Positions 10,510 to 47,920 of a DNA stretch of 64,000 bases are shown one piece after another; the first letter of the stretch is position 1, and every line of letters begins with the position of its first letter. The position numbers and the translations under genes are program-made. The notes under the pieces are model-generated. The model did no database searches. It saw only the letters and a program-made list of their open reading frames with translations, and was not told the origin of the DNA. Origin of the DNA: Membranipora membranacea (taxonomy: Eukaryota; Bryozoa; Gymnolaemata; Cheilostomatida; Membraniporidae); the NCBI GenBank assembly GCA_914767715.1, contig OU612069.1, forward strand, positions 29,801,079 through 29,865,078, read 5' to 3'.

Positions 10510-10514
10510 GTGAG

Positions 10515-18590: not shown

Positions 18591-18593
18591 GCT

Positions 18594-22200: not shown

Positions 22201-22773
22201 TCTCCCCTCTACAGTTGTTGGCTCTCTTTGGGGCAAATTTTTCCTTCGACCTCGTGGCTGTAAGGGCAGGGGTTTGAATTTCTAACTCCCTTAGGGCGAG
22301 TATTATTGAAATGTAACAAATAGCGGTATTTAAAAAGCATTTTGATGGGCATAATTTGATACTCAGAGAAGAAAGAGGTCACATGACCACGTGGGCGGAT
22401 TTTGAGTATGACACGAAGAGCCGATCTTTGAAGTAAATAGATTTGATGACAATTTGCGGCATGACCATCAAACTCAATACCATAATTAAATGTGGATAAA
22501 AGAATGTGTAACACAAATTGATCATCGTAGGAATTTCGAAATATGGTCGTACACTACCCATTAAAAATAGGATGTAGTTCAATTTCCGACAAACTTCTAA
22601 AATATGGGTTTTGAAAATAATGCTCTCATCAAGGTGAATGCCAAGAAATTTGGTGCTATTTTTTGTCTCTAAAACCTGATTACCAAGTTTAATTTGGTAC
22701 TGTTCAATTTGCTTATTTTGGGATTTAAAAATTACCTGAAATGTTTTTGTGTAGTTTAAAATCAATTTATTAC

Positions 22774-23253: not shown

Positions 23254-23832
23254 ATGAAAACGAAATTGGATAGCTAATACTTTTTCCGCAATTTTGGATA
23301 TTGCAGTTAATATTGATATCGGCCGATTGTTGTTACAGTTAAATTCATCACCTTTTTTATGCAGTGGTCGTACTCTGGTAATTTTCTGGCTATCTGGAAA
23401 TTTGATGTTCGAACAATAAGATTGATCATGTGGGTCAAGATTGGGCTGATAGAATTTTTATGACATTCTCTGTAATGTCGTTTGTAATTTCTAAGAAGTC
23501 AAAATGGTTAATTCTGTCGTATTTAGTATTTCGTATTTCGTATTAAGTATGATAACGGGTCAGCTCCACATTCAGGTAATTTAGCTGCCAAGCCAGAACC
23601 TACACTCGTAAAAAACTTGTTAATACATTCAGCAATTTCATTTCCAGATGTGTACCTTTGTCCATTTGTTTCAATACAGCTTGGTGTTGAAGACTTGTCT
23701 GCTTTTCTGTTTAAAAGCCGATTTACAGAAGCCCATTTCTCATTTTGATTCGATTTTACATTTTCAAATTTAGTTTTGTAAATTTCTATTTTTGCATCTT
23801 TGATGATATTACATGTCAGATTTTTTATCTTA

Positions 23833-24190
23833 AGCTGCCTTTACACATGCGACAAATCGGCTAAAAATAACAACTCAGGCACAGGTCACCGATTTGACTG
23901 ACCGTGTAAACAGTTAATCTGTGTTTAAATCTGTATCGTTCAAAATCGTTCACTTGTGACAATGTCACAAGTGAACGACAAATCTTAACTATTATGAATG
24001 GTTCAGCCAATAATAGCACAGCCAATCAGAGACAAGTTGAGTTAGAAGTTTGTGTTGAAATTGGTTAGGCATGAACAGTGTGTACATAGCGTATCGTTGA
24101 CATGTTGACAGACAACGATTATAGAGCAGATTCATAATCTGTGTCGGAGTTGTTATTATTAGCCGATTTGTCGGACGTGTAAACGCAGCT
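23833..24190. mobile_element. PIF/Harbinger-like MITE nested in the LINE
   Basis: 358 bp with ~47-bp imperfect inverted ends (left agctgcctttacacatgcga, right the complement of agctgcgtttacacgtccga) and a TTA duplication on both sides (23830-23832, 24191-24193). The 3-bp TTA target is the mark of PIF/Harbinger. The centre has another palindrome (cgttcacttgtgac...). No transposase. Confidence 0.8.
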
Positions 24191-25585
24191 TTAGAATATT
24201 TTTGAAGAAGTTTACTGTTGAAAGGCTCATCCTTTAATTTCCGGGCAAGATTTTCTCGCTGTTGAATCAATTTGAAGATTTTGAGCGTCGTCAAAGGCTT
24301 TTTAAAAGTAAATTTATTGCTTAGCTTTTTAGTTTTAGTTGTTGATGACTCAGCTACTAATTTCTGTAGAGTATTTGTAAAAATTTCAAAGGCGCATTTG
24401 GATTACTGCTATTGAGCACTCCCTGCCATACTTCGGGGTCATTAACTTTCTTGTAAAGTGTGTTGGGATCAAGCTTAGTAACTAAAATTTGGTTTGCTTG
24501 GTTTGGCTTCCATGTGTTTGGGAAATCAATGGAGCTAATCACTGGAAAATGGTCAGCTATCATGTCAGTTTGAACTGTACATGACAAAATTTCATTACTG
24601 CTGTTGTTGACCAGAATATGATCTAAAATGCTGTCTTTCGTGCGGCCGCACCGTGTTGGCGACTCAATAATATTAAAGAAGCCATTCATGCTCATAATTC
24701 TCATATAGTCTAGGGTAAAGTTATCAGTTTATTTGAAGGATTTAAGTCAAAATTAAGATCACCAACAACTATAGAGTTGATAGGGAGCGAAGGCAGCTGC
24801 CCCTCCCAATCCACCAGGAAAGCTGCCGGCCCCATCGAAGGGGTGCGATAGCCTGCCAGCACAGAGCAGACTGGGTGGCCAGAACAAGTCATACGAACCA
24901 CCATAGCCTCCGGTCCAGACAACCGAACATCCGTCACACTAGCCCCAACTCCTCTGATACATACATAGCAATTCCACCGCCAGCGCCATGAAACCGAGAT
25001 CTACAAAACACTTTATAGCCATATAGTGAATACTTCTCTAAAAATTCATTTTGTGAAAACCAAGTCTCTGAAATGACAATACATGAAAAATGAACATTGA
25101 GTTGAGCTAGCAGTACTTCAAACAAAGGCATTTTGTTGATTAAACTACGCATATTGATGTGTAAAATTGTTAAGGATCTGGTGCTAAAATTTTTAATAAC
25201 GGTATTCACAGATCCTGGGCTAAGATTTTGAGCATGATTAAAAAAGTCAATGATTTGGTAATTGGTTGGCTTAGCCGTCCTGTTTTGGTGTTGTTACAGG
25301 ATTGAGGTCATTGAGCATGCTTTCCGATGTTATTTTAACAGCATCGGCATCTTGGCTTTGTCTCATGTAGACTTGCCCATGATAAGTCCATGCATATTTC
25401 CAGTTGAGAGCCTTTTTCTGTTTATGGGCTTTATAGAAAAGTTTTTGTTGGGCTGTGGAGAGCATTTCATTAATAAAAATGTTCCGTTCTTCTCTGAAAC
25501 CGATGGTTTTTGTGGTAACCGTTTTCTTTTTGAAATTTTTTCTGGCATTGAACAGCTTTTCCCGAGATGTTGTGTTGTTGAACTT

Positions 25586-26083
25586 TTATAGGATCACTGG
25601 ATGATCTCGTGAAGACTCATTTTTGATCCGGAATGCAGCATCTATATCACTTGGTGAGATGGTAGTGTCCAGGTGACTTGCTAGTGATAGCACAATTTTT
25701 GATGTGCTTTCGTTGCGGCTCTCCGGGATATTAGCTATTAACAGCGCTCGTTGATTTTTATCATTCTCGATTTTATCAACAGTGTGGATGACGGCCTGAG
25801 TTTTTTCTGATTTGTCTTCATTATTAGCTTGGAGTTGTTGTATATGCTTGTTGAGTTCTTCAAACTTTGCTTTTAAATCAGTTACATCTCGGTGTGCATA
25901 TTCTAGTGATGTGACGAAACCTCTGTGATCCGCCTCGATGGCATCCAGGCGAGTGTTGATCTTGCTCACTGCTGTCATTAAGGTGTTGTACTGGTTGTCA
26001 GCTGATCTCTTGTTCTCGTCCATTGTGTCTAGGATTTGTTGCAGCTGCCAGCTGGCCATTATGTATCTCACTGGCTTCTGCAC
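25586..26083 (-). CDS. LINE ORF1 protein (coiled coil)
   Basis: 165 codons open. Heptad-like hydrophobic spacing runs through the first 110 residues (e.g. MTAVSKINTRLDAIEADH, FEELNKHIQQLQAN), then RALLIANIPESRN and DAAFRIKNE resemble the RRM-like part of LINE ORF1 proteins. It probably continued into the frame ending near 25363. It acts, in known elements, by binding element RNA. Confidence 0.7.
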   Translation of the reverse strand: MQKPVRYIMASWQLQQILDTMDENKRSADNQYNTLMTAVSKINTRLDAIEADHRGFVTSLEYAHRDVTDLKAKFEELNKHIQQLQANNEDKSEKTQAVIHTVDKIENDKNQRALLIANIPESRNESTSKIVLSLASHLDTTISPSDIDAAFRIKNESSRDHPVIL

Positions 26084-27502: not shown

Positions 27503-30370
27503 CTAATCCGAATCTTGGTGCGCTAATAAAATCTCATAAATTTTCTCCCGGGGAACATATTGATTGGCCTTCTCCCCAAACTGATAGAAAAGCATATGAG
27601 CCTCATCAGCAGTAGGTAAAACTAAATCCTGGGAGTCTGAACCGATATTAGCGGGTGGAGCTATAGTCTGAATGGCGATTTGAGCTGTGGGGAACTTGTA
27701 CGACTGAGGAAGATGTTGCATGATGTACCTCTCAAAACAGTCAGAGATATTATCTGCTCTGTGGGGTGGACGGCCATTCAAGCATGGTGGTGTCTCGCAG
27801 ACTGCACATGTCTCACCAGAATAATGAGCATTTCTTGATTGTCGAACAATTTCATCTATAGTTAAAAAGTTCATTGATGCGTAGCTTTTAAGAGAGCTTT
27901 CCTTGACACGATGAGACTCAAATAGGACCATCTCTTGGTTGAATTTCTTCTTGCATATTGAATTTGACTTTGCATTACATAGTGGAGTATGCTTATCTGG
28001 GTGGTTGATAAGATCATGCTGAACATGTGGCGCGACGCCTTTTACTTTCTTCCTTGCACTTTTCTTTGAGTAGTTTGATTTCAGTATTTGAGAAAATCGC
28101 TGGCTGTCAGGGATCTTCTTGGTGGTGAGCGTGAGAGAGGTTAGAGCATCTTTATAATCCAATCTTACAGGAAGCCCTATGCTGTTAGTCTTACCGACAG
28201 CTATCAGAATGCGGCGTGTAGAATTGACACCCCAGCCCTCCCTATACTGGATTATTGGCTTACTATGACCACCATTTTTTCCTATGACCTTAGTTGTTGA
28301 TGTTGTGTTTTGTGCAGATCTTTCCTCTTGACCTGGTTCTATTTCTCCACTGGCAGCAGTTGGTCTCTTCACACTTTCCAATCTCGAAGAAACATGGAAC
28401 TTGCACAAAAATACTGACTCAGTGCATGTCTGACTGTCACTTCCTGTGTCATCTATGTCTATGAAGCGAGACAAGTTATCGTCATAATCCTGTCCTTGAG
28501 GATCAAGTGAAGCGTGCGTCGATTGGATTTGATCGAATTGCGATTGAGAAAGCTGAAAAAAATTAACAGAATATAGTTCACATCAAATTTTGTGAGTTGT
28601 GAGTAAAAAAGTCTGTCTTGTCTTTGTTAGACTGATATAAGCCATGACACAGTAATTTGATTTGTTGCTCCTAGTGGACATTCCAAACCAGCCTAACAAA
28701 GAACACCTTAATACAAAAATAAAATTACTAGCGCATATTGAGATTTGTATTTATTATGGTATATCATGTATGAGACATTCTCTGAGTGCAACCAATCTTC
28801 TCAGGGCTTATCATATCATGTAACATTTTCCAACCAACCTTCTCATTTTCCTTTGAAGTATTGAAGATGGATATAGGGATGAACTCAGTGGGTGTCTTGT
28901 CACATCCGGCCCTCACTGAAATTCCCGCAGAGCCAAAGCAGACTGAGAGATAATCATCCCTGGAGAGATGAAATACCTCAGGTTGCGGTGCATGAGGCCA
29001 CAGGGTAGATTGTAGATCTATTCCCTCACACTCATCAAACTCTGTCGGCCCAGCTGCGATTTTGTGACATATATGGGCCAGTGAGACAAGCCATTGTCCC
29101 TCAATGCCAACTTCGCTGAAGAAATATCGCTGTCCTGTTTGAAAACGCACCAATCCTTTATGAAAGACCACCAATGTGTTAGTATCACATTGTCTATTCT
29201 CTCTCTGGAATCCGCTGACAAATATGACAGCAGTGATGACGTTGTCTACTTGACCCTTATTGTCGTGCAGCTTCCTCAGCTTCTTTGTCACCTCACTTAG
29301 TTGTTGATGCATCTTCATCCGCTTGTTCATGAGCAGCGACTAAAAAAAGGAGAAATCTATGTAATTTGAATGTTTGCAGCATAATACATCAGAAAACTCT
29401 TCAAAGATTTTCAATTTGATATCACAGTAACAAAACATGATTAAAAGAGAGCATGCTGCATGTACTTAAGGTAACATTTCACAATGTAAAGCTTACCTCA
29501 ACAATCGGGTCGCCGTAGTAACTAGGACCGTCAGATGAGAGTGCTTTGTTCTTGGATGGACTCTCCGGTTTGCCAACAATAAGCTTCAAATCCTTGTGCC
29601 TGTAGAAATATGCTTCTTTTCCAGTCCCTTTGACTGATTCCACAGTTGGTGAGATGATCTCATTTCGGTCACATGTGAAGTAGCACATCTCCTCACTATC
29701 ACTCTCATCATTGCCATCAGCTGATGGTGGTTTGAACGCAGGCGGGCTAGCCATCACCAGGTACTTTGGATTATTCTTGATCATTGCAGTCAGCTCTTTT
29801 TTCTGTATATGTTCAAGAGATTTCTCATTATGTTCCACAATAAACTCATGCAGGAGGTCGTTGAAAACAATATGGGTGCTTGCTGTTTGGCTTCCAATTT
29901 CCGCAGAGAAATTCTCACTGATAGACCCAGCAACAAGATGAAACAAAGACTCACATGTTGACTTAGATCTCATCCACACTATTGTGACGACTGAGTAATC
30001 ATCAGGATTATCTAGGTCTGAGATCTCTTTCTGTACGTCTGACTCCATCTTGTGATACTGAAAATAAAGAGACATTATCAGCAACTGTACTTCTGATTGG
30101 TCACTGCGGTGTCAGTTACATTGTGAAATTCCACATCAAACAGAAGTTCAATGATTATTTATTTATTAACTCAATCAGCAAGCAAACCATACCCACCTCT
30201 CCGGGTATCATGTCACTGAGTTTGTCTTCAGAGGGATTATCTGTGTCAGTCTGGGCTGAACTCGGTTTGCTGATTAATGTCAATTCTTCATCTTGAATCT
30301 CTGTTTCTGTTTCCGGTTCATCTGATGAAGAACAAAACATGTTGTTGAAAGACATATATTTCTCAATGCA
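27503..30370 (-). CDS. C-terminal extension of unknown function
   Basis: Four exons (30370-30197, 30057-29497, 29339-28839, 28552-27503), all phase 0, about 761 residues. I recognise no family. Visible: acidic/Ser-Thr-rich exon 13 (SSSDEPETETEIQDEELT); exon 14 with a possible folded segment (YSVVTIVWMRSKSTCESLFH) and an acidic patch; exon 15 with two strand-rich blocks (ITAVIFVSGFQRE, DDYLSVCFGSAGISVRAGC); exon 16 with basic runs (KKSARKKVKG) and a Cys cluster CAVCETPPCLNG. Stop TAG at 27503. The donor at 28839 is preferred over the read-through stop at 28764 because phase and a good acceptor at 28552 fit. Confidence 0.6.
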
Positions 30371-33300
30371 CTGCTTGATATAAACAATTAGTCTCTTTAA
30401 AATACTTTATGAGAATATCTACATTCATCTACAAGATAAGTTAGTGCTTCCCATTGAACTGTGTACAAATTTGAGAAGCTACATCGCAAACATTGACCCT
30501 GACAAACAAAAGCCTTCTAGTCACTTTTGAAATCATGATGACCATCAACGTGGCTGCATATTTGGTAAAGTGTTCAAATGCAAAGGAGGTTATATTATGA
30601 TATTATATATTATATTAATGATAATAGCAGCATAATTGAATTCCCCTCGATACCTTAAGTTCTGAGAGGAAGAGATAGATCTATAGCTGAGACAAGTGAG
30701 TGCTATCTAGATATTACCTGAGAGGCACCTAATCTTTGTGCTATCAGCATTTCCTGTTTCATTAGATGGCTGACTTCCAGATTGACACTGAGATCACATT
30801 TGCCAAGATAAAGCTGCCAGCCACCAGTAAAAAGACATGTATTCTTAGGCATTTGGTCTACTTGAGCTTTGAAGTGCTCAGACGGAGGGAGGGTGTATCT
30901 GATTTCATCGGATCTCTCAGCACTGTACATACTCACAGCCTCCCTGATCTGTTAATAGAATCCAAACCAATTTTATGCTGCTGATGAAACCAGAATCTAT
31001 CAGACAGCTGAATCCTAACCACCCTTCTAATCTTTATAAGAAAAGCTCTCCCCCAGCTGTCTCTGCTCCTGGGTGGTGGAGAGATTACAAGATTGAAGGG
31101 GGTCTGGAACAATCAAATCAAAGCAAAGCAAACGTTGAAAGCTACTCAGTGGGACTTGAACCTACACCTTCTTCACCATGCTCGCCTGGCAGTGAATCGG
31201 AGACACGCTTACTCAGACCCCTTGTATGAATCTTTTTAGCAGATTTTCACGTTTGTCAGCATGTTTTCCATGCTTTCACATGTCTTTCCATGAGTCAGTA
31301 ATTTCAGTTAATTAATATTAGGCAATATTTTATGAGAAGAATGTAAGGGAAAAAACTGCTTTACACATGATGATTATATTTAGAAGTTGATATCGAATCA
31401 TTTAACATAATGTGTTCAGATCATTTCTGAACTAAACAACTCTTACAGAATTTGCAAAAGCTTGCAAGAGTTAGTAGAACTTACAATATTACTCATAGTC
31501 ACCATATCGTACCGGTCAGCCATTTTATATAGTGTTAGGGCCACAGCTCTTATAAACGGTGATCCTAAAACTGGACTCCTTGCTGAAGCAAAACCTGCAA
31601 ATGAAAGACATCTGTCGATCATTAACGTTAGTGCTCTTATCATGATGAATTGGTTCAGGTAACGGCAGTGCTGGGGCACCATTAAGGGACTGATGAATCT
31701 TAATATTTTCATTATAATATACCAATCGATCAAAATGTATGTAAAGGATAGTAAGAATGTGGTTATGCGATGAGTTTAGATTCTACTGCAATTCAACAGT
31801 ACTTCTGAGTTATTCTCTAATTCAATTTTGTACACCAAGGTTATTACATCATTTCCTCTTGTTTTTTACTGAGTCTGAGGATATTGATTGGATCACATTA
31901 TATAAAATTCTGTTGATTCCTGACATGGCACTCACCATCAAAGCCTGATTGCATTATCAATAGATCTGGAACTGATATCTCGAGTTCGACCGGTTGTTGT
32001 GACTGCTGAGGATGAGAGAACACAGCAGGTGGTTCATTCTCAGCAGCTGATTGGTTGACTCTTTCTGTATGACCCTCACTGGTGGAGCTTTGTGGGGTGA
32101 CTATCTGTTGTTCTGGCCCATCATCAAGCATTTTCTCAACTTTCTCTGCACAATAGAAATCATAAAATTAGAATTATGATAATTTGAATTGATTACCCAG
32201 AATCGAGAATGAATTGTTACAATAAAACAAATTTGAGAAGACAATACAATTACAGGTTATATTTAGGCCTACGGTTTTAATACTCTTAGTTATTGAATAA
32301 AGCGCGTTTATTATTCCACATAATCATTTTATATTATATAATATTGTATATATATCTGATTTATTGAGGCTTCATTGCAATCCCTTACCTCCAGAGGAAG
32401 CCTGAATTATCACAAGCTTTGGTTTGCCTTTCATAGCTGGGAAATTAAGAGGTGATAGCAGGTCATATAGATCAGTCAGTTTGATGTGTTTGTTATCACA
32501 GCCTAGTACACTACCCTCATCTCCATGACTTGTCACGACTAGGACAAACATGCCGTAGTTCTCGTGTATCGATCTGCCTGTGTTCTCATCTATTAGCTGT
32601 GTTTCAGCATAAATAGCATCAACGATATCCTAAAAAGAATTAATGTAGGCATTAGTATACCGTATGGGACTCATAATATTCTAGTAATTGAACATTGTAT
32701 TGTGATGTCGGTAACGGCGACCAATACCACTCCTTACCTGTATGGTGTTGTCTATACTATGTACTACTAGATGAATACCGTAAGGTCGCATATTGTAACC
32801 ACGCGGCTTGTTGGTGAACAGGCCTGGATCAATTTAGGAAACAAAACACAGATTTTAGCCATGTCACACCAGCAAGCCCACTGTCACTAGCCGGCCAGGC
32901 AATAAAATGATCAAGAGATGTGCACACTATATGTTACATGCTAATGCCCTCCCACCACACTGCACGGACCTGACCACAGCCCACAGCTGTCCTACAAAAC
33001 ATTATGATACATTTCTGTCTGTCATAACGATAAGAAGTTGCATCAACTGGTGGGGAAGAAGAATGCTGATTGGTTAACTATTTGTCAGATCGTTTCTTAT
33101 TGGATGATAATTTTATGTAGTTGTAACGAGGTAACAAGGTCATACATTGAGCTCAACAATTTTATATGTCTCTTCTGAGGTCGGATATTGTTAATAAAAA
33201 TAAGAGATATATAGTCGCTGCTAGCTTGTTACAACTGAGTTAGTATGTATGTTCACTCAATAGCCACCTGCCTATAGAATTTGGAAACAATGCCCTTATT

Positions 33301-36300
33301 ATAATCGCGGTATGCTTGACTAAGTTTTAACCACTCATGCACATTAACCACGCGGCTACAATAAGCGACCTTACAGTAGAAGTGCACTGCTGTAGACATG
33401 TGCCCAGTGTTTTTGGGACTGGCCTGTTTAGCAAAGTGTCAAAAGACCACAACGCAATTTATCAGTAGGCGATGCAGTTGTTCATTCCAAAACGACTGAC
33501 AAAATGCAAAGACTCACGGCCCTGGATCTCAAAACAGCCACACCAATTAATAAAAAAGTAGAAACATTGTACTGTAAATGCAAAAGAAAGGGCACAACAC
33601 ATCTAGAGAACCGTTACAATACCTACCGCCATGTTGTCCAGAAAATGCTACAGAAGCAACATGCTGAGTATTTCAATAAACTATTCACTGACCAAGAGAA
33701 GTCCCCGGAAGAACTTTCTAAGCACTTCTGTACCTATATCAAACATAAGTATTCTGGCAACATGTCATCTGTGGGATGACTGAAGAAAGACAAACAACTG
33801 GTGACAACCCTTTAAGAAAGGGCTGAAATTCTGAACAACCAATTTGTATCTGTCTTCTCAAAGCCCTCAGAAGGAGGATATTATCATGCCTTAACACTCA
33901 ATTCCACCATGAGTGACATTGTCATAGGCAGGAATGGAGTTCACAAACAACTACAAACTCTCAACCAATACAAGCCCTCAGGTTTAGACGGTATCAGCCC
34001 AAGAGTCTTGAAAATCTAGCGGAAATCATGGCTGACCCACTCACCACCCTATCCCAGAACTCACTGGACAGTGGCAGTGTCCCTGAAGATTGGAAAAAGG
34101 CTGTGGTATGCTCCATCTACAAGAGGGGAGGGAAGACCACAGCAGCCAATTATCGACCTGTAAGCCTTACCTGTATATGCAGTAAGATGATGGAACACAT
34201 CATTACCAGCCAGCTTAGGACATTCGCAGAAGACAATAACATCTAACCAGCATGCGTTTCGCAGAGACCATAGCTGTGAAAGTCAACTAATTGAGCTGAT
34301 AAGCATTATCACCGAAAAACTTGACAAAGGCGAGGAGACAGAAACGTGTGTTTTGGACTTCAGTAGAGCTTTTGATAGTCAAAGTCAACCACACCAAGCT
34401 GCTTTACCAACTCGCATCATACAGCGTCAACTACCAACTCGTGTCTTGGATCGGCGACTTCCCCGGAGGGCGTAGCCATAATGCAGTGATCAATGGTGAA
34501 AGCTCCTCAGAAGCACATTGTGTTCACTAGACAACGTCAACCTACAAAAAGAAGCTACACCTGCACGGCACTGAAATCCTGAAAGCACAGCACATCAAGT
34601 ATCTAGGAGTTAAACTTGACCTGGAATCTCGATATCTCCATATCGATCATGTGGTTGCTAAGGGAAAGTCCACTCTCGGATTCATATTATGTAGAAACAT
34701 ACCCACAGGCTGCGAGGCAATCGAGAACACAGCAGCGTACAAGCAGCTGGTCCGGCCAGTCCTAGAATATGCCTCCGAAGTCTGGGACCCAGCAGCTGAC
34801 TCTGCTACCAACCCCAATCGAAGATGTGCAGAGAAGAGCAGCCCTGTTCATCTGCGGTATACGGCGCACCAACAGGGAAACCAGCACAACCTGGATTGAT
34901 CGAGAAACTGTCGCTTCAACCCCTCTCACACAGACGGAGGGATAGCCATATCAAAATCTTTAGTCGATACCATCACTCCAACAAAGGCGTCATCAACAAC
35001 TACATCCAAACAGCCAGCGTTTCATCAGCTAGGAGACAGGAGGAGCAGTACTTTATACCTATGTCAAACAGAAGCGAGAATGTTTTCATCCAGGACTGGA
35101 ATGCCCTACCCACTGGTAACTCATTTCTTGTCCCCGTGTGTATAACCCCTAAAAGCTGTTCAATTATCAAAATTGTTGCTGATTGGAAATGTTAACCGAC
35201 ATACAAGAAAAAAAAGTTTCTCAAGTCACAGCAGACGCTGGCACTGGAAACTAGACTCATCAAGGAATAAATCAAGGTACAAATCAAGGTACAGATCAAC
35301 ATCACAATGATATATTCAGTTACCAGATTATACTGACAACAATGATTGCAGACAAGGCCCCAAATGTATGGTCGGAATGTGGAAGGCAAAATTAGATCAG
35401 TTTTGGGTTTTTTGAAGTGTACATGGAAAGAAAGTGAAATGAATAAATTTAACTGCTATTTGGAAGAAAAAAAAGTTTTGTATTCCCTGATTACCCCCCT
35501 AAAAACTGAGCAACTTACTGCGTGTTCACCAGAATGGATTACCGGGCTTTTAACCTCCAGCCACAAATAGCACTCATTCAGGGTAAGGAAGAAGGGCAAT
35601 CTGTCTGCAACTTGCCCATCACAATCAAACCACCAGTACAGCCAATCACATCACAGTTTGGTACAAAACAGTTCAAATCGACAACTATTCTATATCAAGT
35701 TGCACAATAAAGCATAGCAACAGATTTAATGATACAAAGTCTGATATGCCATATTATACCTTAGCGTTGTAGTTCTTGTGTTCTCCTGCTGTGACGAAGC
35801 TCAGACTATCCAGTACTCGTTTCATGTTTTTATAGTCATGTTCCGATCCGTGTCTCATGAGGTCATTTCCTGTCTGTTCATCAGTCACCTGGTACATGTT
35901 AGATAATATCAAGGCTCTGCCTCGCGGCTCTGTCATCTTGTATACCTGTAAGAGTAAAACACAGAGATCTACATAAATAACTGTTCTAAACTGTGCAATC
36001 AAATGACAATCTGTGACTTCAGTCTGAAAAGTAACATACTTTATATTAGTATAATCTCATTAAAGGGGATAATGAGAATAAAAATCAATCTACATTAATG
36101 TGTAAACTGTAAAGCATCAACAGCTGCTCATCACAGAAACTTTGCTGAAATTAATCAAGCATGTACCAAGGTGGGATGCAAAAAATATAGGAGGGGTAAA
36201 CAAAATGAAATGCAGTGAAGAGTTGATATACCTCATACAGTGCCTGTGTTGGCTCAGTAACCTGATCTCCACCCTCAGGACAGATATCAGCAGGTGAATT

Positions 36301-39300
36301 CCTCATCATATTTACTATCTCACCAACGACTTCAATAGTCGAATTCTCTGACACCTCTACAGATACTTGGATTCCGGTTTGTGCAATAGATTCTTGGTGA
36401 GGCAATGAAATCAAATATAAAATTTCAGTAAGCAAAATAAACATGAAATAATGGCAGTCATAAAAATTACTCCAATTTAATCACGCCGCTTAAGAGTGTG
36501 TTAATTATGTATAAACAAGATATTATGTAGATGACTGAACACAAAACTGATACTGGTTCTCTCTTTGATTCAACAAATACCTGACAGATCGTTGCTGTAA
36601 AACATCAATCATATCTCCATAACCTGATACAGAAAATTCTACATTACTGATCAAACAAACAAATCCATATACTATGGTACATACCAGTGATACTTCTTTG
36701 GAGGCCTCTAGAGGTCCCGACAAATCCAGACCTAGGTGAGCCAGACCTCTCTTCTTCAAGCTCCCTCACATAATCCTTTACCTTCTTCAACTCTTTCTTC
36801 GTCAACCTGTCACCTGTGACAAAGGACAGATGAGACTAGTATAATAATGAGGTGATATTGAAATCGCCTAAAACAAACTCTCAGTATTCCTATACACAAG
36901 ATCTTGAACAAGGCCAAAAAATTTAAAGATTTTGACAATGCGATTAATGTTGCTGAGCTTGGAGGTTATTTGTAGAATACTTGAAAGGGATTAAACCATT
37001 GCTGCCACAGCTTGGCTTTGCCCAGCATAGCAACCAGTCAAAAATTTAAATAGAGAGTTGTGGCATCAAAAGATCTAAAAAATCCAAGATATACAACCGC
37101 TTTCTCAAGCATGGAATTATCCATCTCAAAACTAACGTCAGTGAAAATTCCAATAAGCAGCAGCATGTCTCTCAGTGTAAATTACTCACACGGGTACCGC
37201 AGAGGCTTCAGCACCTTCAGGGGGCCTCCATCAGTTCTGTCGTTGGCACAGGGGACAGGCTCCACGCCTCTGAATTCACGTAGCCAGTCATCTTTATTCT
37301 CTTGCAAATCAGGAATTTCCATCCAGTCTGGGTCAATATCAGCATCAGGATCAGGGAGCCTCAAGTACAAGCAATGAGAGCAGAAGAATTTACAGATGGG
37401 TCGAGCTCCTTCCCATTGCCCCAGGGAGCATCTCAACAGGTGACAAATCGCTTTCTTCATCAGCCTCCAAGACTTATTCAACTCTTCCACTGGTGTGTCC
37501 ATTTGGATTATGAGCTCACAGTTCTCACTGCTGTGGGTGACACGACTGATTGAGGATCCATGATGGACTTCTGCACCATTACTAGCGGCTCCTATCTTAT
37601 ACTCAGGTGCCAAGAAGAGATTCAAGAATGCTACTGTCAGAAGGTGGTAGACATAGGGAGGTGGTGGAAGGCCTACAAAGAGAATGCCCACCCGGAGGGG
37701 AAGGAGACGATCAACGATCACATTTTCTCTAATTACATCTGTTGAGAGCGCAGGGATGATATATGCCTCTGCAGGTTTGTCTCCAACTGGGCCACAAATC
37801 AGGTAAAATGTCCGAAGAAGGGCAACGGCGATTTCAACAGGGAAGTCATTGCCGCTAAACGCAGTTTTGAGAACTCTCTCATCCAGCATCCCAGAGCTGA
37901 GGAAATTGTTAACTAGCACTGAGTATTTCTCCTTAGTGACCCACTTTCCATTCAACCGTAATGGCTGAAATTCATCTGTTCTCCTTTGCCAGTTCTCACC
38001 ATTCCTGTGATGAAATATCACTGCGATCGCACTGGTCACCAAATCTATCCTGTGAAAGACATACTGACGAAGTATGACATCTCGCTCAAACCATAGAATC
38101 CTGCCAACATCATGCTTATACCGTAGTATCACCAAGTCCTTATCTTCTGGGAATGCCTTTATAATATCTGTCAGAAGGATGTACTGTGACTGGTCATGTT
38201 GCTCGAAGATGGACTCGATATCATTCCACAAGTCAGGGACAACCCTTTTGTGAGCTTCACTACAAAACTCAAGCTTTTGTGTCAAAGAATGAATGTTTTC
38301 TGTTTCAAGCTCATCATCACCGAAAGAATATATGTCATCATCGTCGAACAGTGGTCGGTTGGTGTCGGAGAAATGCTCAATGGTGCAAAATCTGCTGGAG
38401 TTTCTGGAGTAAAGCACTTCCTCCTTCACCATGGACAAACGCTTAGATTCCATGGTTGTTAGTAGCTGTGCTTTACTCTCAGTGAATGCTTCGTCTGATA
38501 GGCGATCCATGTGTGTGAGAACCAAAATGGGCGCTCCCAGATTAGGACAATGAGATATATAGGTGACTGAGGTATCTCATGCAGACCAGCTCTGTAGCTT
38601 TACTGGTCCCGGCAGACATAGACAAATCTGAGAACTGTTTCATGTTCACAACTATGACAGGGATGTAATTGTTCCTTATTGTGAACTGGTGAGCAAGATG
38701 ATAAACATCGTTGCCACCAAAGTCAAAACACATCAGCTTCGAGCCATTGATTGTAATGTCTTTCACCTCAAAGACTTCAGTTGTATCGTCAATAGGTAAA
38801 GTCTCATCGCGGCTAGTCAGGGTCCTCTTATTGTGTTTTAGTGTTTCAATCAGACTTGTCTTACCAGCCAAAGTACTTCCTATGACTGCTACTGAGATAA
38901 CGGGAATTTCAGCGGGTGGAGTATGACCTTGATTAGCGAGGTCAGTATAGTATTTCTTGATTGCAGAGAGCCCCTGAACACATACTTCGAAAGGTGGACT
39001 TCTTAGTGCATAGCAACCCCTACAGCCTAGTGAGGTGAGGTGGGCCAGGTTAAGTATCCCCTTGTCCAGTGATTCTAATGGGTCTGTCTGTGAGTGAGAT
39101 CCAAATGCTTGAGTCTCTTCAGCAGTAAGATTACAGGAGGTAATGTTGTGAATTGGTTACCTCCTATATAGAGATACGTCAGATTTTCCAGTGCTGACAA
39201 ACTGTAAATAATAATAGTGAAAGTACAGATAATAATTCACAAAACTTGAATTTTGTGTTTATGACAGTCCTATTTTCAACCACATCTGTGTAGTAAAACC

Positions 39301-42300
39301 AATTGATGGTTTGCCTATTTGCCCGATTACACTTTAATTGCCCGATCTTAAAGAGGTAGGAATCGAAGGGGGTGCACGGGGATTAATCATGTGAAGTGAC
39401 AGGCAAGACCATTGGCTGATCAATGTAATTAGAGGCGGAGAATGGCCTTGGTCTCCGCCTCTAACAGCCAGTCCACGTTGCGTTCTCAAGTGGTCAAGTG
39501 TGTTATATAAGAAATTGTGATCCGCAGACACCCATAAATAAAGTTGAATAGAAGCTATGATATAGCTATTGTTGTGTTGGCTCATCACACTTGGGATTAT
39601 AGGGTTTAATTACAACGGTCAATTTCAATCTTGACAACGGTATCGAGGCAACCTCCAAAACCATAAATCATAACATCAAAATTGACCAATAAGAGCTCGT
39701 ATATTTTGAAGCGGATGATTTGAAATCATCGGAACTGGGCGATTTCGTATGACATCAGTCATATTTTCACCACTTTCCAATGCCATTATTGGAATGAAAA
39801 TTTATTGGGCATGTGTATCACACAATTCCGCATCAGCTTGTCTGATTCCCATTAAAAATAATTCACTGCTTCTCCTCTCAATTCCGAGAAAGCAGGAGGA
39901 ATTTGAATGCTGCTAACCCCATTTGAATTTGATATGGCTGGGTGATCGCTTTACATTGACTGGCCCTTATATACCGGTCGAGGCACTTTAATATTGAAAG
40001 CTTCAAATTATTAAGCGACCTACCAGGCCTTTGAAGATAAACAATTTCAATCAAGTTGTCTTCCCTTTGAAAATTGACAGTGGCGTTGAGCACATCATTA
40101 GTGATGACAGAATTCATGGAATAACTCCTATTCCAAGAAAGCTAAAGCTAAGGGGTTGCCAGAGGATCATGTCAGTGTAGTATGATATCTGATGGCCATA
40201 CTTGCCAAGTAATCTAAATACAAAATAGGGAGATTCCATTTTACGGCGATACTGCATCACAACTTGGTGCTTCGAGGGTGCGACGCGCCCGAGTCACCCA
40301 AATGGGGGTTTGGGGGCGGTGTGAGCCCCCCAACGGGGTACGGGGCGGAGCCCCGTCTGCAGAAGCTCTGTGAGCGTTTCCAGCCACTAGGAAGGGCTAA
40401 AAAGCTATATTTGACCCCAAATAATTTCATATTTGTACTAGTACTAAAATATCAAACTGAGGTGAAATACACTTTAAACAATTACAATCAATCCATGGGC
40501 CCCTGGGACTCTTACATACATGCCTCTACATTGTCAATGTCCAGTATCAAACACCCCATTGGCAAAGTAGAGGCATGTAAGTCCCAGGGGCCTTTGCCTG
40601 TCAAGACAGGCTACAAGTGCCCATGCATCATCAAGATCTGAAAATGTGCTCAGTCACAGACAGTGAGAATCCAGATAAGGTACTATATTTTTGTTTGACT
40701 AACATTAAATATGTTTCAAAGTCTTTGGTCCGAGGTTTGTTAAATTGTAGTGGACCTACCTTTGGAATTGTTAGGTTTCTATTTTCCTTCACTTAAATTT
40801 AACTAGTAGACAGTACAAAATGAATACTAAAAAATGTGTGATCTGAAAGGAAATGAAAACTAAAGGTATGCACTTGACTAGCTACTTTATATTGTGACCA
40901 ATGACAGTCAGTGTTGTGAGTTATGAGAGGATGCTATTGGTCATTTACAATAATAGGCTGAATCTTAACAGAACAGGTAGAATTGTTAGGATTGTTCAAT
41001 TTGATAATTCCTTTCAATTTTGTGTGCAAAGACCTTAACAGTAACTAGTCAACAACAACATGTGCTTGGATTACTATCAAAAAATTGCGATTGGACTGTT
41101 TTCTCTAAAATCTGGAGGAAATAGTGAGATTTACAAAAAGTGGGAGGTGGGTGTAAAAATCTGGAGGGTCACGCCTAAATCGGGAGACTTGGCAAGTATG
41201 CTGATGGCATAGTTTTCAATACCCTACTCGGGATTATTTTTTTATTTTTTACGTACTGCCCAGTGGTTTTTTCAGGTAATTACAGTAAATGTATGTTGCT
41301 GATCACAGCAATAAATTGACCCAATGTACACCAATACACAATACAGTACACAATACACATATTATTGCATCGCTATGTTATGCCTGATTATTGTCTGCTG
41401 TGATCAGGTAAAATAGAGGTTATCATGCTGATGACAAGAGAGGGTACTGTGTCTGTACTGGAATGTTGGATGAGGCCATTACAATTTGACTAGAAATACC
41501 GCAGGAATAAATGCCACAAAACATCAGGGGAATGGATAACAGACTATTTATTTTTTGTATTAGGTTAATTTGGTGATTGACTTGTGTAAGATGAATGGTT
41601 GACTGAATTATCCAGTATAGGTTTTGGGTGGTTGATACTTGACATCGGCAAAATGCAGGCTTGCAGGAATACAGATCCCAGGGGCCCATGACACAAACCC
41701 TCCCTAGCCTTATCTTCAGACCCTATTCTAAGCTCAATGTGGTCCAAATGGCCAAGTGAGGGGGATTGATGAAGTCAGTTTTTGTCCTCACGGTGTCAAC
41801 CATAGTGTAAAGTTTGATGCGATATTCTCCCTTTCCGTGCAGCTTTCCACAAGGCACCATTACTCTGGTCCATGGTGTGACACTGAACATCATATATTTC
41901 TCCAGCGGTGAGGTTCATTTTCTGCATGAGTTGTGCTATAAATTGAAGAAAAGAAAGATGAGCATTTGGTAACAAACAGGAGTGGTTGATACTTTTCAGT
42001 GATCAATCACAAACTAGTTCCGAGATCTATATTAGTAAAGGTAAAGAATGGAAAGATAATACCATAAACATATAAACCCATAAAACATAAAAATTTGATT
42101 AACATCAAACATACTCATGTTACCAGAACGCTAAACCAACTTACTTTACCAATTTGCGAGTTTGGATAGCACTTCAGTAAAAGAGACTTTGTGTCACATT
42201 CTACATGGTAACCTACCGATCTATGTCTTCAGGTAAATTATCAGAGTAAAGAAGTTACTACAAGTCGGTTTATACAATGGCAGCCAATAGTACACTGCAG

Positions 42301-44140
42301 GTGTTGTCAACCAATTATCTAAAACTTCCAACAATGGTGTAGATAGATTGTCAAAGATTTTCTATCACACATAATGAAAGAACTAGAAAATAAAGTTATT
42401 CCACTGTTTGCTGTATATCCTCACAGTAGGTAGTAATGTACAGCTACTAAGAATTAATAACATCACATGCCACATTCCGGAGCAAAGGCAGCTTAATATT
42501 GATTGCTATATGGGCTAGGCTGCAATGTCTGCACCAGGTTGCTCTATAATTGCAGACAGGCCGGAGCACACCTGGGGGGTGGGCCAACCAAACCTTAGTA
42601 GTCAATAGAATGCAGTGGGATATGAACCCCTGACCTTATAATCACTTTCATGCTGAAGGACCGGCATTCTGACCAACTGAGCCACCGCCTACTCCTAGAG
42701 TAGGATAGACTGCGTCCAGGACTGCTGGATCTGCATCAGCTCTCTACATTAGCTTGACCCTGATATTAAGGTAATACTTATATTTTGTGTCCAGCTAGTT
42801 TGAGATGTAACATCCTGCAATTAAAAAAAAAAGCAAGATCAGCAGGGGAGACAACTTAGTTATTATCATCAGAGTTTACACAGCTTACCCTGTTGACTGA
42901 TCTGCAGTTGTCAAGTTCTCCAGTCTCAACACTTTGAGGTTAGGTGATATCTGATTTAGAGGTGGTATGTCTCCACTAATAACCATGTGTGTTACAGTGT
43001 GACCTTCTGTAGCTGATATAAACTCATGTAGTGTTAGGTTCTTGTATCCCACATCTTCAGGTATATCATCAATATCAGGCTCACTGTCATATCTGTACCA
43101 CATATCATACTTCTCTGTTAATATAACCATACACCACTTTTGGCAATGGAGACATCAGGTTGGTTCATTGAATACCCCTAAGTCCTCTTCACCAAAGACA
43201 ACCTATACCTAACCGCCGACTACACAAAGGGACACTACCTATAAAGCCACTTCCTAGTAAAACTATAAAATTTTACTTCTGACTGTGTCGTATAGATATT
43301 TCACAATTTCCAGCATGCAGAGAAACAGAAAAAAATTTATACTTGGGAGGACTAGAAACTCTTACATACCAAGAATGAATAAAGACAACAATGTAATTAC
43401 AACAATCAGGAGAGTAACAGGTCTGAGGGCGGCGTGGCTAGAGTGATCAACTATGAAAGCTTGCCTTGTGGGACCCGAACCGATTACTCCATTGTTCCAC
43501 CTCGCCTTCTCACAACCAGGGAGTAAGATAGGGTAGTAAATAGCAGATAGTAGTAGATAGTTAGTAAAGGGATGTTTGCACCACAAAATTTAATATTGCA
43601 CGCATGAAAATCCTTTTGTACTGGTAAAAGATTGTCATGGGAAAACAAATATGGAGTCTTAATCGTAATATCATAATTCGTAGTATATTGATTTAATCTT
43701 TGAATCTAGCGGTTCAACCAGTACCTTTTACGCAATGGCCTTATTTGCAGTGGACTTATAGTTAGTGACCTATGGGTAGTTGCCTTTTGACCCTAATAAT
43801 TCACTGCTCGGGAGATGACCAGTTCAGAAGTAAAAACATCACGATAACAAGCGAGGTAAGGCCAGCTGATTTTGTGAGTTTCTTGTGATAAGTTTAGCGA
43901 CTTGATGTGAGATCATCTCATTTTGAGTCTCTGACCAAATCTGATATATTTCTGATGTCATGATCTATTCACTTGGTTGGAACCGTGTATACCCAATGTC
44001 AGCCTAGAAAGCCGTCAAAGCGAATTCATTACTCTCTATAACTCAATCTCACCTTGCTGGCTATCTGCTGGTTTACTTGTACCTGAGTTCTGACTCTGCT
44101 TTTTCTCTGCGGACTCGATTCTACGTTGTGGTGTATCCAT
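27503..44140 (-). CDS. LRR-ROC-COR-caspase-like fusion protein
   Basis: A single gene assembled from 15 minus-strand exons, all with GT-AG borders and matching phases: 44140-44053, 43114-42889, 39201-37190, 36813-36685, 36392-36232, 35945-35760, 32806-32738, 32629-32389, 32145-31936, 31594-31485, 30948-30718, 30370-30197, 30057-29497, 29339-28839, 28552-27503 (TAG). Sum 5949 nt, about 1980 residues. Domain order: short basic N-terminus, leucine-rich repeats, ROC GTPase, COR, linker, caspase p20 and p10, then ~760 residues not recognised. ROCO proteins are GTP-regulated scaffolds, so the fusion suggests GTPase control of a caspase-fold module. Catalytic Cys is replaced by Ser. Two compensating frame breaks lie in the ROC exon. 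Whether all exons form one mRNA is inferred from phase, order and domain continuity. Confidence 0.72.
30718..30948 (-). CDS. Caspase-like p10 C-terminal exon
   Basis: 77 codons, phase 0 at both ends (attaacag|ATCAGG ... TCTCAG|GTAATA). It has AVSMYSAERSDEIRY, FKAQVDQMPKNTCLFTGGW and QLYLGK, matching the way caspase p10 ends (Q-P-x-STL-KLYF). It completes the fold and then runs on into unrecognised sequence. Confidence 0.7.
31095..31225 (-). repeat. tRNA-like SINE (minus strand)
   Basis: Complement holds B box GGTTCAAGTCC (31152-31162) with the partner A-box-like TCTGAGTAAGCG about 45 nt earlier, then CACTGAGTAGCTTTCAACG. The tail tttcaa...ttgattgttcc links it to the copies at 42580, 43425 and 45430. 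Confidence 0.55.
31485..35945 (-). CDS. Caspase-like domain: p20, linker, p10 start
   Basis: Exons 35945-35760, 32806-32738, 32629-32389, 32145-31936 and 31594-31485. p20: VYKMTEPRGRALILSNMY, RHGSEHDYKNMKRVLDSL (conserved Arg of the S1 pocket), VLVVTSHGDEGSVLG (catalytic His, CAT at 32525-32527), GKPKLVIIQASSGE in place of QACRG, so the nucleophile is Ser (TCC at 32396-32398). The linker exon is Gln/Ser/Glu-rich. p10: EISVPDLLIMQSGFDG, then SARSPVLGSPFIRAVALTLY with the S-x-R of the substrate pocket. The start matches caspase-8-like VYxM-KPRG. Exon 7 has an alternative acceptor at 32823 that would not keep frame. A LINE fragment sits in the intron before it. Confidence 0.82.
33495..35200 (+). 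mobile_element. Degenerate LINE fragment in a ROCO intron
   Basis: Plus-strand pieces in broken frames: 34028-34246 has VPEDWKKAVVCSIYKRGG and AANYRPVSLTCICSKMME (RT fingers), 34330-34480 the LDFSRAFD box, 34600-34900 YLGVKLD and RPVLEYASEVWDP (thumb). The YADD box is missing, so there is an internal deletion near 34530. 5' part 33504-33779 is the upstream linker. Opposite strand to the host gene. Confidence 0.85.
36232..36813 (-). CDS. COR-to-caspase linker exons 4 and 5
   Basis: Exon 36813-36685 (cacag|GTGACAG ... ACTG|GTATGT) encodes DRLTKKELKKVKDYVRELEE, a charged helix. Exon 36392-36232 encodes SIAQTGIQVSVEVSENSTIE and ends TQALYE|, directly before VYKM of the caspase. Phases 1/1/0 fit. 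A 43-nt segment 36623-36581 also has splice borders but would break the frame. Confidence 0.6.
37190..39201 (-). CDS. ROCO core exon: LRR, ROC GTPase and COR
   Basis: 2012 nt. LRR: LSALENLTYLYIGGNQFTTL, then LNLAHLTSL, SPPFEVCVQGLSAIKKYY, the usual bridge from LRR to ROC. ROC: P-loop GSTLAGKTS (38854-38880), CFDFGGNDVYHLAHQF (switch region) and PILVLTHMD (THxD base-binding motif). COR from about 38300: GRILWFERDVILRQYVF, SSGMLDERVLKTAF, YIIPALS. It ends C|GTGAGT in phase 1. Two frame breaks, near 39090 (between LRR and ROC) and near 38575 (before LTHMD), compensate each other, so LRR and COR share a frame and the ROC piece does not. Either sequence errors or inactivating indels; no intron signals explain them. 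Confidence 0.85.
39202..40190. other. Intron 2 of the ROCO gene, part
   Basis: No exon needed here by phase. A minus-strand frame of 79 codons (40117-39878) has no recognised family. A small frame at 39334-39588 is low-complexity and unlikely. Confidence 0.35.
40197..41200. mobile_element. 1004-bp TIR element with 8-bp target duplication
   Basis: Ends are inverted CATACTTGCCAAGT, and CTGATGGC flanks both sides (40189-40196 and 41201-41208). An 8-bp duplication fits the hAT or P superfamilies. No transposase is encoded. Inside are a GC-rich block (40264-40370) and an imperfect copy of the 51.3-kb palindrome (40494-40595). Confidence 0.75.
40494..40595. repeat. Imperfect copy of the CATGGGCCCC palindrome
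   Basis: Left arm catgggcccctgggact and right arm aagtcccaggggcc with ttgtcaatgtccagtatcaa and ggcaaagtagaggcatg between. Related to the perfect copy at 51289-51402; a solo right arm ends at 41691. Confidence 0.65.
41630..41691. repeat. Solo arm of the CATGGGCCCC palindrome family
   Basis: ttgatacttgacatcggcaa ... cagatcccaggggcccatg matches the right arm of the 51.3-kb element. No matching left arm was found next to it. The adjoining 41495-41545 shares ttttgtggcatttat-type sequence (complement) with 16365-16390. Confidence 0.5.
41796..41950 (-). pseudogene. Possible YqaJ-like exonuclease fragment
   Basis: Complement: acceptor-like tttatag|CACAACTC then QLMQKMNLTAGEIYDVQCHT, MDQSNGALWKAARKGRIS, ending at TGA (41796-41798). 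The block T-x-QS-x-x-W-x-x-R-x-R-I resembles the start of YqaJ-type nuclease domains found in animal transposons. Only one exon-sized piece, inside an intron of the ROCO gene; weak. Confidence 0.3.
42580..42690 (-). repeat. tRNA-like SINE (minus strand)
   Basis: Best A and B boxes of the group: TGGCTCAGTTGG (complement of 42673-42684) and GGGTTCATATCC (complement of 42618-42629). The 3' body shares the CACTGCATTCTATTGAC pattern with its relatives. The spacing is that of a tRNA but no clean cloverleaf forms. Confidence 0.65.
42889..43114 (-). CDS. ROCO-caspase gene, exon 2 (first LRR)
   Basis: Acceptor attaacag|AGAAG, donor acagg|gtaagc, phase 1 in and phase 2 out. Acidic start (DSEPDIDDIPEDVGYKN), then leucine-rich repeat-like PNLKVLRLENLTTADQ, which continues directly into GLSALENLTYLYIGGNQF of exon 3. 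Confidence 0.65.
43425..43510 (-). repeat. tRNA-like SINE fragment (minus strand)
   Basis: B-box-like GGTTCGGGTCCC (complement of 43471-43482) followed by AAGGCAAGCTTTCATAGTTG, matching the relatives at 31.1 and 45.5 kb. The 5' half is poor. Confidence 0.45.
44053..44140 (-). CDS. ROCO-caspase gene, exon 1 (start)
   Basis: ATG at 44140 (complement) opens MDTPQRRIESAEKKQSQNSG and ends CAA G|GTGAGA in phase 1, which fits exon 2 (|AG AAG TAT) to read QQEKYDMWY. Hydrophilic, no domain. The start was chosen because it is the only ATG in an exon with a phase match; stops precede it. Confidence 0.6.
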
Positions 44141-46139: not shown

Positions 46140-46383
46140 CTGTCCTTGACTTACAGGTCAATGGTGATCATTTCTGGTCCCTGATTAGACATCAACTACT
46201 GTCAACCAAACAAAACACCATGGGCATTGATGAATATGTAACCTCACTTCACAAGATTGCTTGTGAGTGTTAGTTAGCTACGATGTATGATAATTTCATA
46301 CTTCAAGCTTTGCTTCTTGGCATAAATGATGACCGACTTAGACGGAACTTATTTGATGAGGCTGGAGGAGATACCATGTAGCA

Positions 46384-46701
46384 GTGAGAAAAACGAATGG
46401 GACACTAAGAGTATGTTTGGACCCGACTAGTCTGAACAAAGTGATACAGAGAAATCACTTCCCAATGCCTACTTTGGATGATGTACTCAGTGAGCTTGAT
46501 GGTGCTAAAGTATTCTCTTTATGTGATGCAAAGAATGGTTTTTTGCGGGTAAAACTAAGTGAAAAGTCAAGTGACCTTACCATATTCTGGACGCCGTTCG
46601 GCAAACACAAATGGTTGAGAAGTCCTGAGGAGTTTCAGAGGAGTCTTTCTGATGCACTGAGTGGTCTACAAGGAGTAACTGTAGTGGCTGATGTATACTA
46701 A
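46384..46701 (+). pseudogene. Ty3-like reverse transcriptase fragment
   Basis: RT fingers and palm of a Ty3-like element. The catalytic box region reads TVVADVY followed by a stop, where YIDDIL-type residues are expected; the homologous frame resumes (KLERLLTRARRVNLRLNKEK) to about 46845. Confidence 0.8.
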
Positions 46702-46859
46702 TTTACGGGAAAGGTGACAGCCATGCGGAGGCAGTGCAAGATCACAATCAGAAGCTGGAGAGACTGCTTACTAGAGCCAGACGAGTAAACCTCAGGCTAA
46801 ACAAGGAGAAATGCAGATTTCTTCTGGAGGAACTGCCATAAATATTGGCCATCTTAAAG

Positions 46860-47920
46860 TGTTTGTAAAGGATCAGGTTTTTTGGTATCATTCTAGAGAT
46901 CTCAGTCTAGTTTAGAACATTATACTATGTTCAAAAGCAGCCTGTGGCCCAGGTGAGACTTATTTGCCCTCAAAGTTGGGATGAGAAGGTACTAAAAAGG
47001 TACTTTTTTTTTCTTTGGAGTTGTGATCACTTGTTGAAAATAGTACCTTTTCAGTACCTCAGATTATAATGGGAATATACAGTACTTTGTAACTAAGGCG
47101 TATTGTTATGACGCAGTGGTTTTGATATTCTGCATATGAAATGTAAACACACAGAAATTATCTATTGAATGAATGAGTGAATACAAGGCATTATTTATCT
47201 GTCCTATGTGGTTTAGCTGGTAAAATGGGATAGTGTATGACATTTCATAATTCAATGACAAAGCTAACGATCTAAATCGAACACGGCAAAAAATTACAGC
47301 TCTAGCTCATCCGACAGTGAGAATGGAAATTACAGGGAGATTAGCAGCTCTAGTGAGAGCAAGATTGAATATCATTTAGGAGGCATTTGTAGCAAATCGA
47401 CGTCGAGTCCATGTGATTATCAGAAGGAAAATATCTCTGAGGTAGTCAAACCACTCAAGTTTAAATCTGTATGATTTCGGCCACTGGAAATAACCCACAG
47501 TGCTTTGGCAGATAGAACATTTTCTATTAACCATGGTTACTGCTCGAGATAGAAATTGGCAATATAAAGGCAGATCAATACATCGCTAAGTATTTCAAGG
47601 TTTTTGTTTACATTAATATGATGAATAAATGAGATTGTGGCTATGACATTCCAATCAAACTCCGTCTTCAGCCCCCATGAAAACCAGTGATATGCTTCAA
47701 TTATTAGCTTCATGAATAGCGGCTTTCAATAGAATTTCAATGGAAGATACAAAATTTACACAGGTAAATTGTGTGTTTTCTTGAAAATATGTATATCCAA
47801 ATCGCACAGAAATCTAAAACAAATTCTTTGTAAATCTCGACATTTCAGGCATTAGGGTGATGTTGAAATCCAAAGCATGCAATGATTAATACTGAGTGAT
47901 TTGAGGTTTTGACAATCTTT
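46860..47920. other. Unidentified insert splitting the Ty3-like element
   Basis: Replaces the RNase H region. A short acidic, Ser-rich frame at about 47270-47474 (YSSSSSDSENGNYREISSSS, ISEVVKPLKFKSV) looks like the N-terminus of a transposon-associated protein but is too short to name. Confidence 0.3.

Follow-up and report, generated by a model that had tools for sequence, protein, structure and literature searches.

Background

Whether a GTPase switch and a caspase can share a single polypeptide chain is the question raised by a locus of the bryozoan Membranipora membranacea, at which LRRs, a ROC GTPase, a COR-like region and a caspase fold follow one another on one strand. A caspase fused in this manner would set the ROCO GTPase cycle directly upstream of proteolysis and, if the fusion is real, the nucleotide state would become readable as protease activity. 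The stretch of DNA analysed here, hereafter the window, comprises 64,000 nucleotides of chromosome 5 (C5:29801079-29865078) in a genome of 339,339,785 bases; the end of the chromosome lies 98 kb beyond the end of the window.

Bryozoan immunity is, to our knowledge, little known, and nothing on bryozoan caspases was found in the open-access PMC literature. The same literature yielded no description of a ROCO-caspase fusion, a silence that does not prove that none has been published. A review of the Roco proteins distinguishes three groups, namely the kinase-bearing, the MASL1-like and the DAPK proteins, and its main text leaves caspases unmentioned (PMC6320773).

Results and discussion

Gene model of the window copy

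The gene occupies the minus strand of the window from 44140 to 27503. An initial annotation had counted fifteen exons over this span; the span stands, but only 14 exons have GT/AG ends, and these are labelled here 1-6 and 8-15, the label 7 being absent. Exon 1 (44053..44140) holds the proposed start codon and the first 29 codons and leaves through a GT donor in phase 1. It is the weakest exon of the model, its one support being the splice phase; no homology was found for it, nor was it found in 30-kb stretches around the two closest paralogs, b and c (see below). Exon 2 (42889..43114) encodes the N-terminal segment that precedes the LRRs (WYR...HVTHM) and aligns with the N-terminus of protein P0001 of a second bryozoan, Watersipora subatra. 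Matches to it by tblastn lie at C5:1.26 Mb (E 5e-7) and C5:1.36 Mb (E 1e-7), and none was found in the 30-kb stretches around b and c. A short LRR-like piece with a stop at its end (42780-42830, minus strand), perhaps a dead LRR exon, lies in the intron that separates exon 2 from exon 3.

Exon 3 (37190..39201), supported by Pfam matches, carries the last LRR, the ROC GTPase with its P-loop GSTLAGKTS (38854..38880) and the COR-like region, and contains two frameshifts. The linker from COR to the caspase is encoded by exon 4 (36685..36813), whose GT/AG ends are kept in b and c, and by exon 5 (36232..36392). The caspase begins in exon 6 (35760..35945) with the first part of p20 (RGRALILSN...RHGSEHD), a Peptidase_C14 match that is 94-98% identical among the paralogs, and continues in exon 8 (32389..32629) with the second part. 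Exon 9 (31936..32145) encodes the interdomain linker and exon 10 (31485..31594) the p10 piece GFASARSPVLGSPFIRAV, again within Peptidase_C14 and matched at loci on C11, C8, C9 and C2; p10 ends in exon 11 (30718..30948), which holds a third frameshift. An acidic linker (exon 12, 30197..30321), whose phase 1 acceptor is shared by b and c, leads to a tail in three parts: exon 13 (29497..30057), exon 14 (28839..29339) and exon 15 (27503..28552). The last of these is 94-95% identical in b and c and ends at the same stop codon in both.

Two elements of earlier versions of this model were dropped. Comparison with b and c revealed a different acceptor for exon 12 from the one first chosen, whereby a 1647-residue open frame from mid-ROC onwards was lost; the wrong acceptor had kept the third frameshift hidden. 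Also abandoned was a possible exon at 32.72-32.86 kb, exon 6 joining the next p20 exon directly. Within the large intron that separates these two p20 exons, frames resembling the reverse transcriptase of a non-LTR element were noticed by eye (33432-35195, plus strand).

Profile searches bear out the proposed order of LRR, ROC, COR-like region and caspase, beyond which lies a tail of some 700 residues. LRR_4 (E 2.5e-9, 37.5 bits) and Roc (E 1.3e-8, 35.6 bits) both exceed their Pfam cut-off of 27, the LRRs preceding a ROC domain in which G1, G3 and G4 motifs are present. COR-A reaches E 1.3e-5 with 25.6 bits, below its cut-off of 35.3, and we speak here of a COR-like region. Peptidase_C14 matches at E 1.2e-23 (84.4 bits, cut-off 21.4) over positions 1-225 of a 233-position profile, which supports a caspase fold with both p20 and p10. 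The motifs originally picked out (GSTLAGKTS, DFGG, THMD, RHGSEHD and SHGDEG) are all present. No Pfam match to NACHT or NB-ARC was obtained in the window copy or in the W. subatra proteins and further loci that were profiled.

Two paralogs with open reading frames

A search of the M. membranacea genome with the tail exons placed the closest copies on the same chromosome, b at C5:29.53-29.55 Mb (minus strand) and c at C5:28.22-28.23 Mb (plus strand), and 30 kb around each was compared with the window. Exons 3-15 occur in both in order and on one strand, with protein identities of 69-100% depending on the piece; at the nucleotide level exon 3, its 40-base flanks included, is 97.8% identical to b and 97.4% to c, and both copies are in frame there. 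Spliced at the same sites over 12 exons from LRR to tail, b remains open for 1836 codons and c for 1828, up to a common stop codon. This terminal stop is the only one in the spliced frame, compared with 186 and 124 stops in the other two frames of b and 191 and 125 in those of c. Exon phases are identical in b and c at every exon, and the exon lengths of the two copies differ by multiples of three only. The AG before exon 5 has been lost in c, where an AG 27 bases further on would keep the phase.

Relatives in Watersipora subatra

Homologs were sought among proteins sharing exact words with the query, and the results are to be read within that limit. A query made from the window copy (residues 324-1200, with X at the breaks) returned one match, W. 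subatra P0001 (E 1.3e-101, 33% identity, 79% of the query stretch). P0001 in turn returned ten proteins, nine of them from W. subatra (P0001 included) and one from Branchiostoma, the last with 11% coverage and no caspase domain listed. Peptidase_C14 is found in seven of the nine W. subatra proteins, each of the seven with HG and QACSG motifs, so that ROC and caspase stand together on one annotated protein in these seven; the COR-then-caspase architecture, which the initial annotation had proposed seeking in other animals, was read in this second bryozoan as well. Two of the nine are without a caspase. Some of the W. subatra gene models appear to be partial: those of P0002 and P0009 begin within ROC, that of P0002 also breaks off before p10 is complete, and that of P0003 ends at the point where a caspase would start. 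The six members with a complete p10 end just past it, with no tail. Roc exceeds its Pfam cut-off in P0007 and falls below it in P0001 and P0008, while COR-A is below cut-off in P0001 and unlisted for P0007 and P0008, and COR-B is below cut-off in P0007.

In a tree of the ROC-COR region with 23 rows, the 13 Membranipora and the nine Watersipora rows fall on opposite sides of a branch (support 96/98); the only root of this tree is a very long outgroup branch, and a warning about long branches applies to it. From this division it seems that the fusion was present in a common ancestor and that the expansion took place separately in each species. The window copy, b and c sit together on a long stem with short tips.

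Size of the family in Membranipora membranacea

With P0001 as query, 35 ROC-COR places were scored in the genome, in open frames of 683-771 residues. A stop codon falls within the match at nine of the 35; in b and c it lies outside the spliced frame. The window caspase gave at least 140 exon matches, 131 of 498 candidates having been scored, and once 14 of the 140 rows had been set aside as belonging to other exons, the second p20 exon was represented by 126 distinct places. At 33 of the 35 ROC-COR places a listed p20 exon lies downstream on the same strand, and at the other two a p20 was located by tblastn. The spacing is about 1.0-1.8 kb in 31 of the 33, and 7.0 and 9.7 kb in the C5 paralogs. 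Given a caspase exon downstream at all 35 scored places, the linkage of ROC-COR and caspase is not due to chance.

A ROC query widened the count to at least 150 matches (150 of 209 candidates), 140 of them in open frames of at least 600 residues. As caspase marks we took 152 places, the 126 p20 places and 26 further places of a QAC pattern described below. Downstream on the same strand, such a mark lies no more than 15 kb from at least 95 of the 150 ROC places and no more than 4 kb from at least 91 of them, and in the mirror-image upstream control the number was 0 of 150. Among the 55 ROC places with no listed mark, 36 of which are on C3, some may truly be without a caspase, and some of the 57 marks with no listed ROC may represent caspases of other kinds. 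Three of the 93 p20 places left unpaired in the 35-place comparison were viewed in 5-kb stretches, mostly upstream; these were chosen rather than random, on C1, C5 and C10, and all three have a ROC-COR frame (673-694 residues) together with HG and QACAG, only the C5 place being among the 57. Roc is above the Pfam cut-off at two of the loci profiled, L001 and L039, and COR-A is below it at both. The architecture had been regarded as without a well-described counterpart in animals; it is not unique, loci with ROC-COR and a cysteine-type caspase existing both in this genome and in W. subatra. As a separate observation, some ROC matches lie in very long single frames (C1:30535830, 1634 residues; C3:14198930, 1705; C11:3049138, 2462), perhaps intronless ROCO genes of other types.

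These data bear on the alternative that a ROCO gene and an adjacent caspase gene were duplicated as a block and never formed one protein. The initial annotation had itself named two neighbouring genes, parting between COR and the caspase exons, as the competing view. In its favour, the gene model derives from genomic sequence, the two caspase-free W. subatra proteins are ROCO proteins all the same and a distance of 1-10 kb separates the ROC-COR exon from the listed p20 exon. At the level of genomic sequence, however, the COR-caspase frame is continuous in b and c, the phases joining without a stop and each copy running in a single frame to the same stop codon; seven annotated W. subatra proteins hold both domains; and the spacing is tight, with 91 of 150 ROC places having a mark within 4 kb. 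We regard a pair of separate genes as very improbable. The placing of ROCO and caspase on one chain has held up, and a ROCO-caspase fusion is, for predicted proteins, well supported.

Frameshifts in the window copy

Splice phases had been reported to match along the full length of the window copy; they do not, three frameshifts having been overlooked. Relative to the open paralogs, exon 3 has an excess of two bases at one place and one base at another. Gap columns against the paralogs locate the first frameshift in the LRR (39075..39098, about 39.08 kb) and the second inside ROC (38541..38565, about 38.55 kb), the window copy being the longer at both, so that its LRR, ROC and COR parts lie in frames that do not join. 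The third, in exon 11 at about 30.79 kb, leaves the window copy one base shorter than the paralogs. Since b and c are open at these three places, the window copy is most likely a recently broken one.

If the frameshifts were assembly errors, the window copy would be intact, a view that we hold to be decidedly unlikely. The breaks coincide with or adjoin short repeats or doublets, as judged by eye, and the evidence comes from the primary assembly alone, but this assembly was made from 66-fold HiFi data with one round of 10X polishing, according to its published description (PMC10290214), and a stop inside the ROC match occurs at only two of the 150 ROC places, one of which is the window copy. 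A broken window copy remains the preferred interpretation. With three frameshifts and the change of active site described next, the window copy as assembled cannot, in its present state, function as a protease controlled by a GTPase switch, and the earlier placement of a caspase module directly under such a switch is unsupported for this copy.

A serine at the caspase active site

A substitution at the active site of the caspase in the window copy had been overlooked. The catalytic histidine of the HG motif is kept (SHGDEG, 32514-32530), while the catalytic cysteine of the QAC motif, also encoded in exon 8, is replaced by serine (QASSG, 32389-32410). Among solved structures CED-3 is nearest to the window caspase, followed by an ancestral effector caspase and caspase-2; the best-matching CED-3 entry itself reads QAS at the active-site position of the alignment.

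The distribution of the two residues was followed with a DNA pattern for PK, four hydrophobic residues and QAC, and with a serine variant covering TCN codons, AGY codons lying outside the pattern. The cysteine pattern has 156 matches genome-wide (100 listed; control 0), a number that includes caspases not necessarily of the ROCO-caspase family. The serine (TCN) pattern has three, namely the window copy, b and c (control 0). Catalytic histidine and cysteine are both kept at four tail-free loci (C11, C8, C9:642 kb and C2:816 kb), and the cysteine (QAC) is also present at loci L006 and L039-L041.

Judged from this residue, the caspase of the serine branch (window copy, b and c) is unable to cleave in the usual caspase manner. 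The ratio dN/dS over all codons is 0.72 for b-c, 0.66 for window-b and 0.60 for window-c; in the caspase exons it is 1.09, 1.34 and 0.48, respectively, exceeding 1 in two of the three pairs. By these ratios the branch is under weak constraint, an argument against its having an important role. Synonymous divergence varies several-fold among the exons of the three copies, as would fit gene conversion.

It is therefore a serious possibility, if not the one we favour, that the whole three-member branch is decaying and functionless. The cysteine is lost in all three copies, c is without its exon 5 acceptor, dN/dS stands at 0.60-0.72 and an arginine that we take to be an S1-pocket residue has become lysine in b, with another such change in c. 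Weighing against decay are the 1836 and 1828 codons still open in b and c and the confinement of their exon-length differences to multiples of three. A regulatory role for the branch is a guess, loss of function being nearly as likely. In either case, the serine branch would supply natural dead controls.

The C-terminal tail

Exons 13-15 form a family of their own within the genome: a query of exons 13 and 14 gave 46 exon matches, the two in the window included. Tail and ROC-COR occur together at C3:22.28 Mb and in the three C5 copies (the window copy, b and c). The tail of the window member has no match to a Pfam family, and other single tail members gave two families at E 0.066 and 0.078 only. 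Residues 1-500 of the 761-residue tail query, of which about the first 16 are probably not coding (they stem from the earlier exon 12 acceptor), found nothing at E <=1 among the best 7998 word-sharing candidates of a large protein set. Against the PDB the tail matched trypsins only, at E 0.74, and GQWLVSLAHIC in exon 14 (28839-29339, minus strand) resembles the histidine region of trypsin-type proteases at that same E-value; a trypsin-like tail was set aside as a mere lead.

A tail that forms a separate downstream gene, with the fused protein ending after the caspase, must also be considered. This would agree with the six W. subatra members that end directly after a complete p10, with the lack of any tail match within 4.5-8 kb beyond p10 at C11, C8, C9:642 kb and C2:816 kb and with the tail copies at C5:1.25, C5:1.35 and C2:30.80 Mb, where no ROC-COR match was found in the stretches fetched. 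It agrees poorly with exons 11-15 being in frame in b and c, with C3:22.28 Mb, where a single strand carries ROC-COR, a degenerate p20 and the tail, in this order, within 8.5 kb, and with C9:21.67 Mb, where a p20 exon (locus L042, C9:21670801-21671200) precedes a same-strand tail exon by 6.6 kb. A separate tail gene is, in our judgement, unlikely, and we retain the tail as part of the window gene. At C5:1.25 and 1.35 Mb (L025-L028), an exon-2-like segment and tail exons occur with no ROC-COR or caspase match between them, possibly an LRR-tail protein; LRR-like frames are seen at C5:1.25 Mb.

A strict pairing of the tail with a dead caspase was also entertained. At the tail-bearing locus C3:22.28 Mb, THA replaces HG and IIQAC appears in a later frame. 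At C9:21.67 Mb, by contrast, the p20 exon has SHG and QTC and so keeps the cysteine near a tail; it is possibly a tail-bearing member with an unaltered cysteine, no ROC being among the matches listed there. The pairing is therefore not clean, and an association of the tail with a dead caspase is only suggested, favoured by four loci and not by C9:21.67 Mb.

Proposed mechanism and relation to known systems

We consider it probable that the gene in the window is one of a family of NLR-like ROCO proteins with a caspase, a bryozoan family greatly expanded in this species, in which a switch controls the pairing of caspases, the serine branch supplies non-catalytic partners or decoys and the window copy is a broken member. 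Initiator caspases activate by induced proximity. In the predicted chain (N-terminal segment, LRRs, ROC GTPase, COR-like region, linker and caspase), the LRRs would sense a ligand and the nucleotide state of ROC would control COR-mediated pairing, which would bring two caspase domains together and activate them by proximity in the initiator manner. Control of caspase pairing by the ROCO part would apply to the cysteine-type members, and intact members of the serine branch may act as non-catalytic partners or decoys after the fashion of c-FLIP. Two published statements are relevant here: a bacterial Roco protein is dimeric when empty or GDP-bound and monomeric with GTP (PMC5714945), and COR is described as a domain involved in dimerization (PMC7159879).

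A bolder version, which we hold more tentatively and rate at somewhat below an even chance, is that bryozoans possess an NLR-like superfamily of their own, with at least 150 ROC loci, at least 95 of them with a caspase, in which sensor, switch and protease share one chain and a branch with dead caspase and tail serves as regulators. The many copies, and their standing in blocks on single chromosomes, point to a possible lineage-specific repertoire for immunity or self-recognition. NLR immune receptors combine an LRR sensor, an NTP switch (a NACHT ATPase) and a death effector with large lineage expansion, and their protease is usually recruited rather than fused. The comparison concerns how such a system might work and not membership, a ROC GTPase taking the place of the NACHT ATPase in the bryozoan proteins.

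Other likenesses are partial. CED-3 and caspase-9, both initiator types, are the solved structures nearest to the caspase of W. subatra P0004, CED-3 being nearest to the window caspase also. Both carry a CARD prodomain, whereas the bryozoan family has LRR-ROC-COR in its place and the window branch a serine at the active site. Akin to the window branch, c-FLIP has a caspase fold without the catalytic cysteine; it carries death-effector domains and is without a ROCO part. DAPK1 is likewise a ROCO protein tied to cell death and, as far as we know, has no protease. It differs further in having a kinase and a death domain and in being without LRRs, according to the Roco review (PMC6320773). In domain order there is a resemblance to ROCO proteins of the MFHAS1/MASL1 type, with LRR, then ROC, then COR and no kinase, and four of the nine W. 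subatra relatives are named after MFHAS1 by NCBI. MASL1 consists of those three domains only, as given in the same review (PMC6320773); in the bryozoan family a caspase domain follows them.

Other frames in the window

Several further frames were noticed by eye outside the gene. Non-LTR retrotransposon-like frames lie at 22382-26083 and 8138-9072 (both minus strand), and frames resembling a THAP-domain transposase, again on visual inspection alone, at 18540-20852 (plus strand). Long repeat-like stretches with several frames open occupy 10479-11270 and 13489-14536. Frames of an LTR-type element, resembling reverse transcriptase and integrase and likewise recognized by eye only, are found at 46360-49351 (plus strand).
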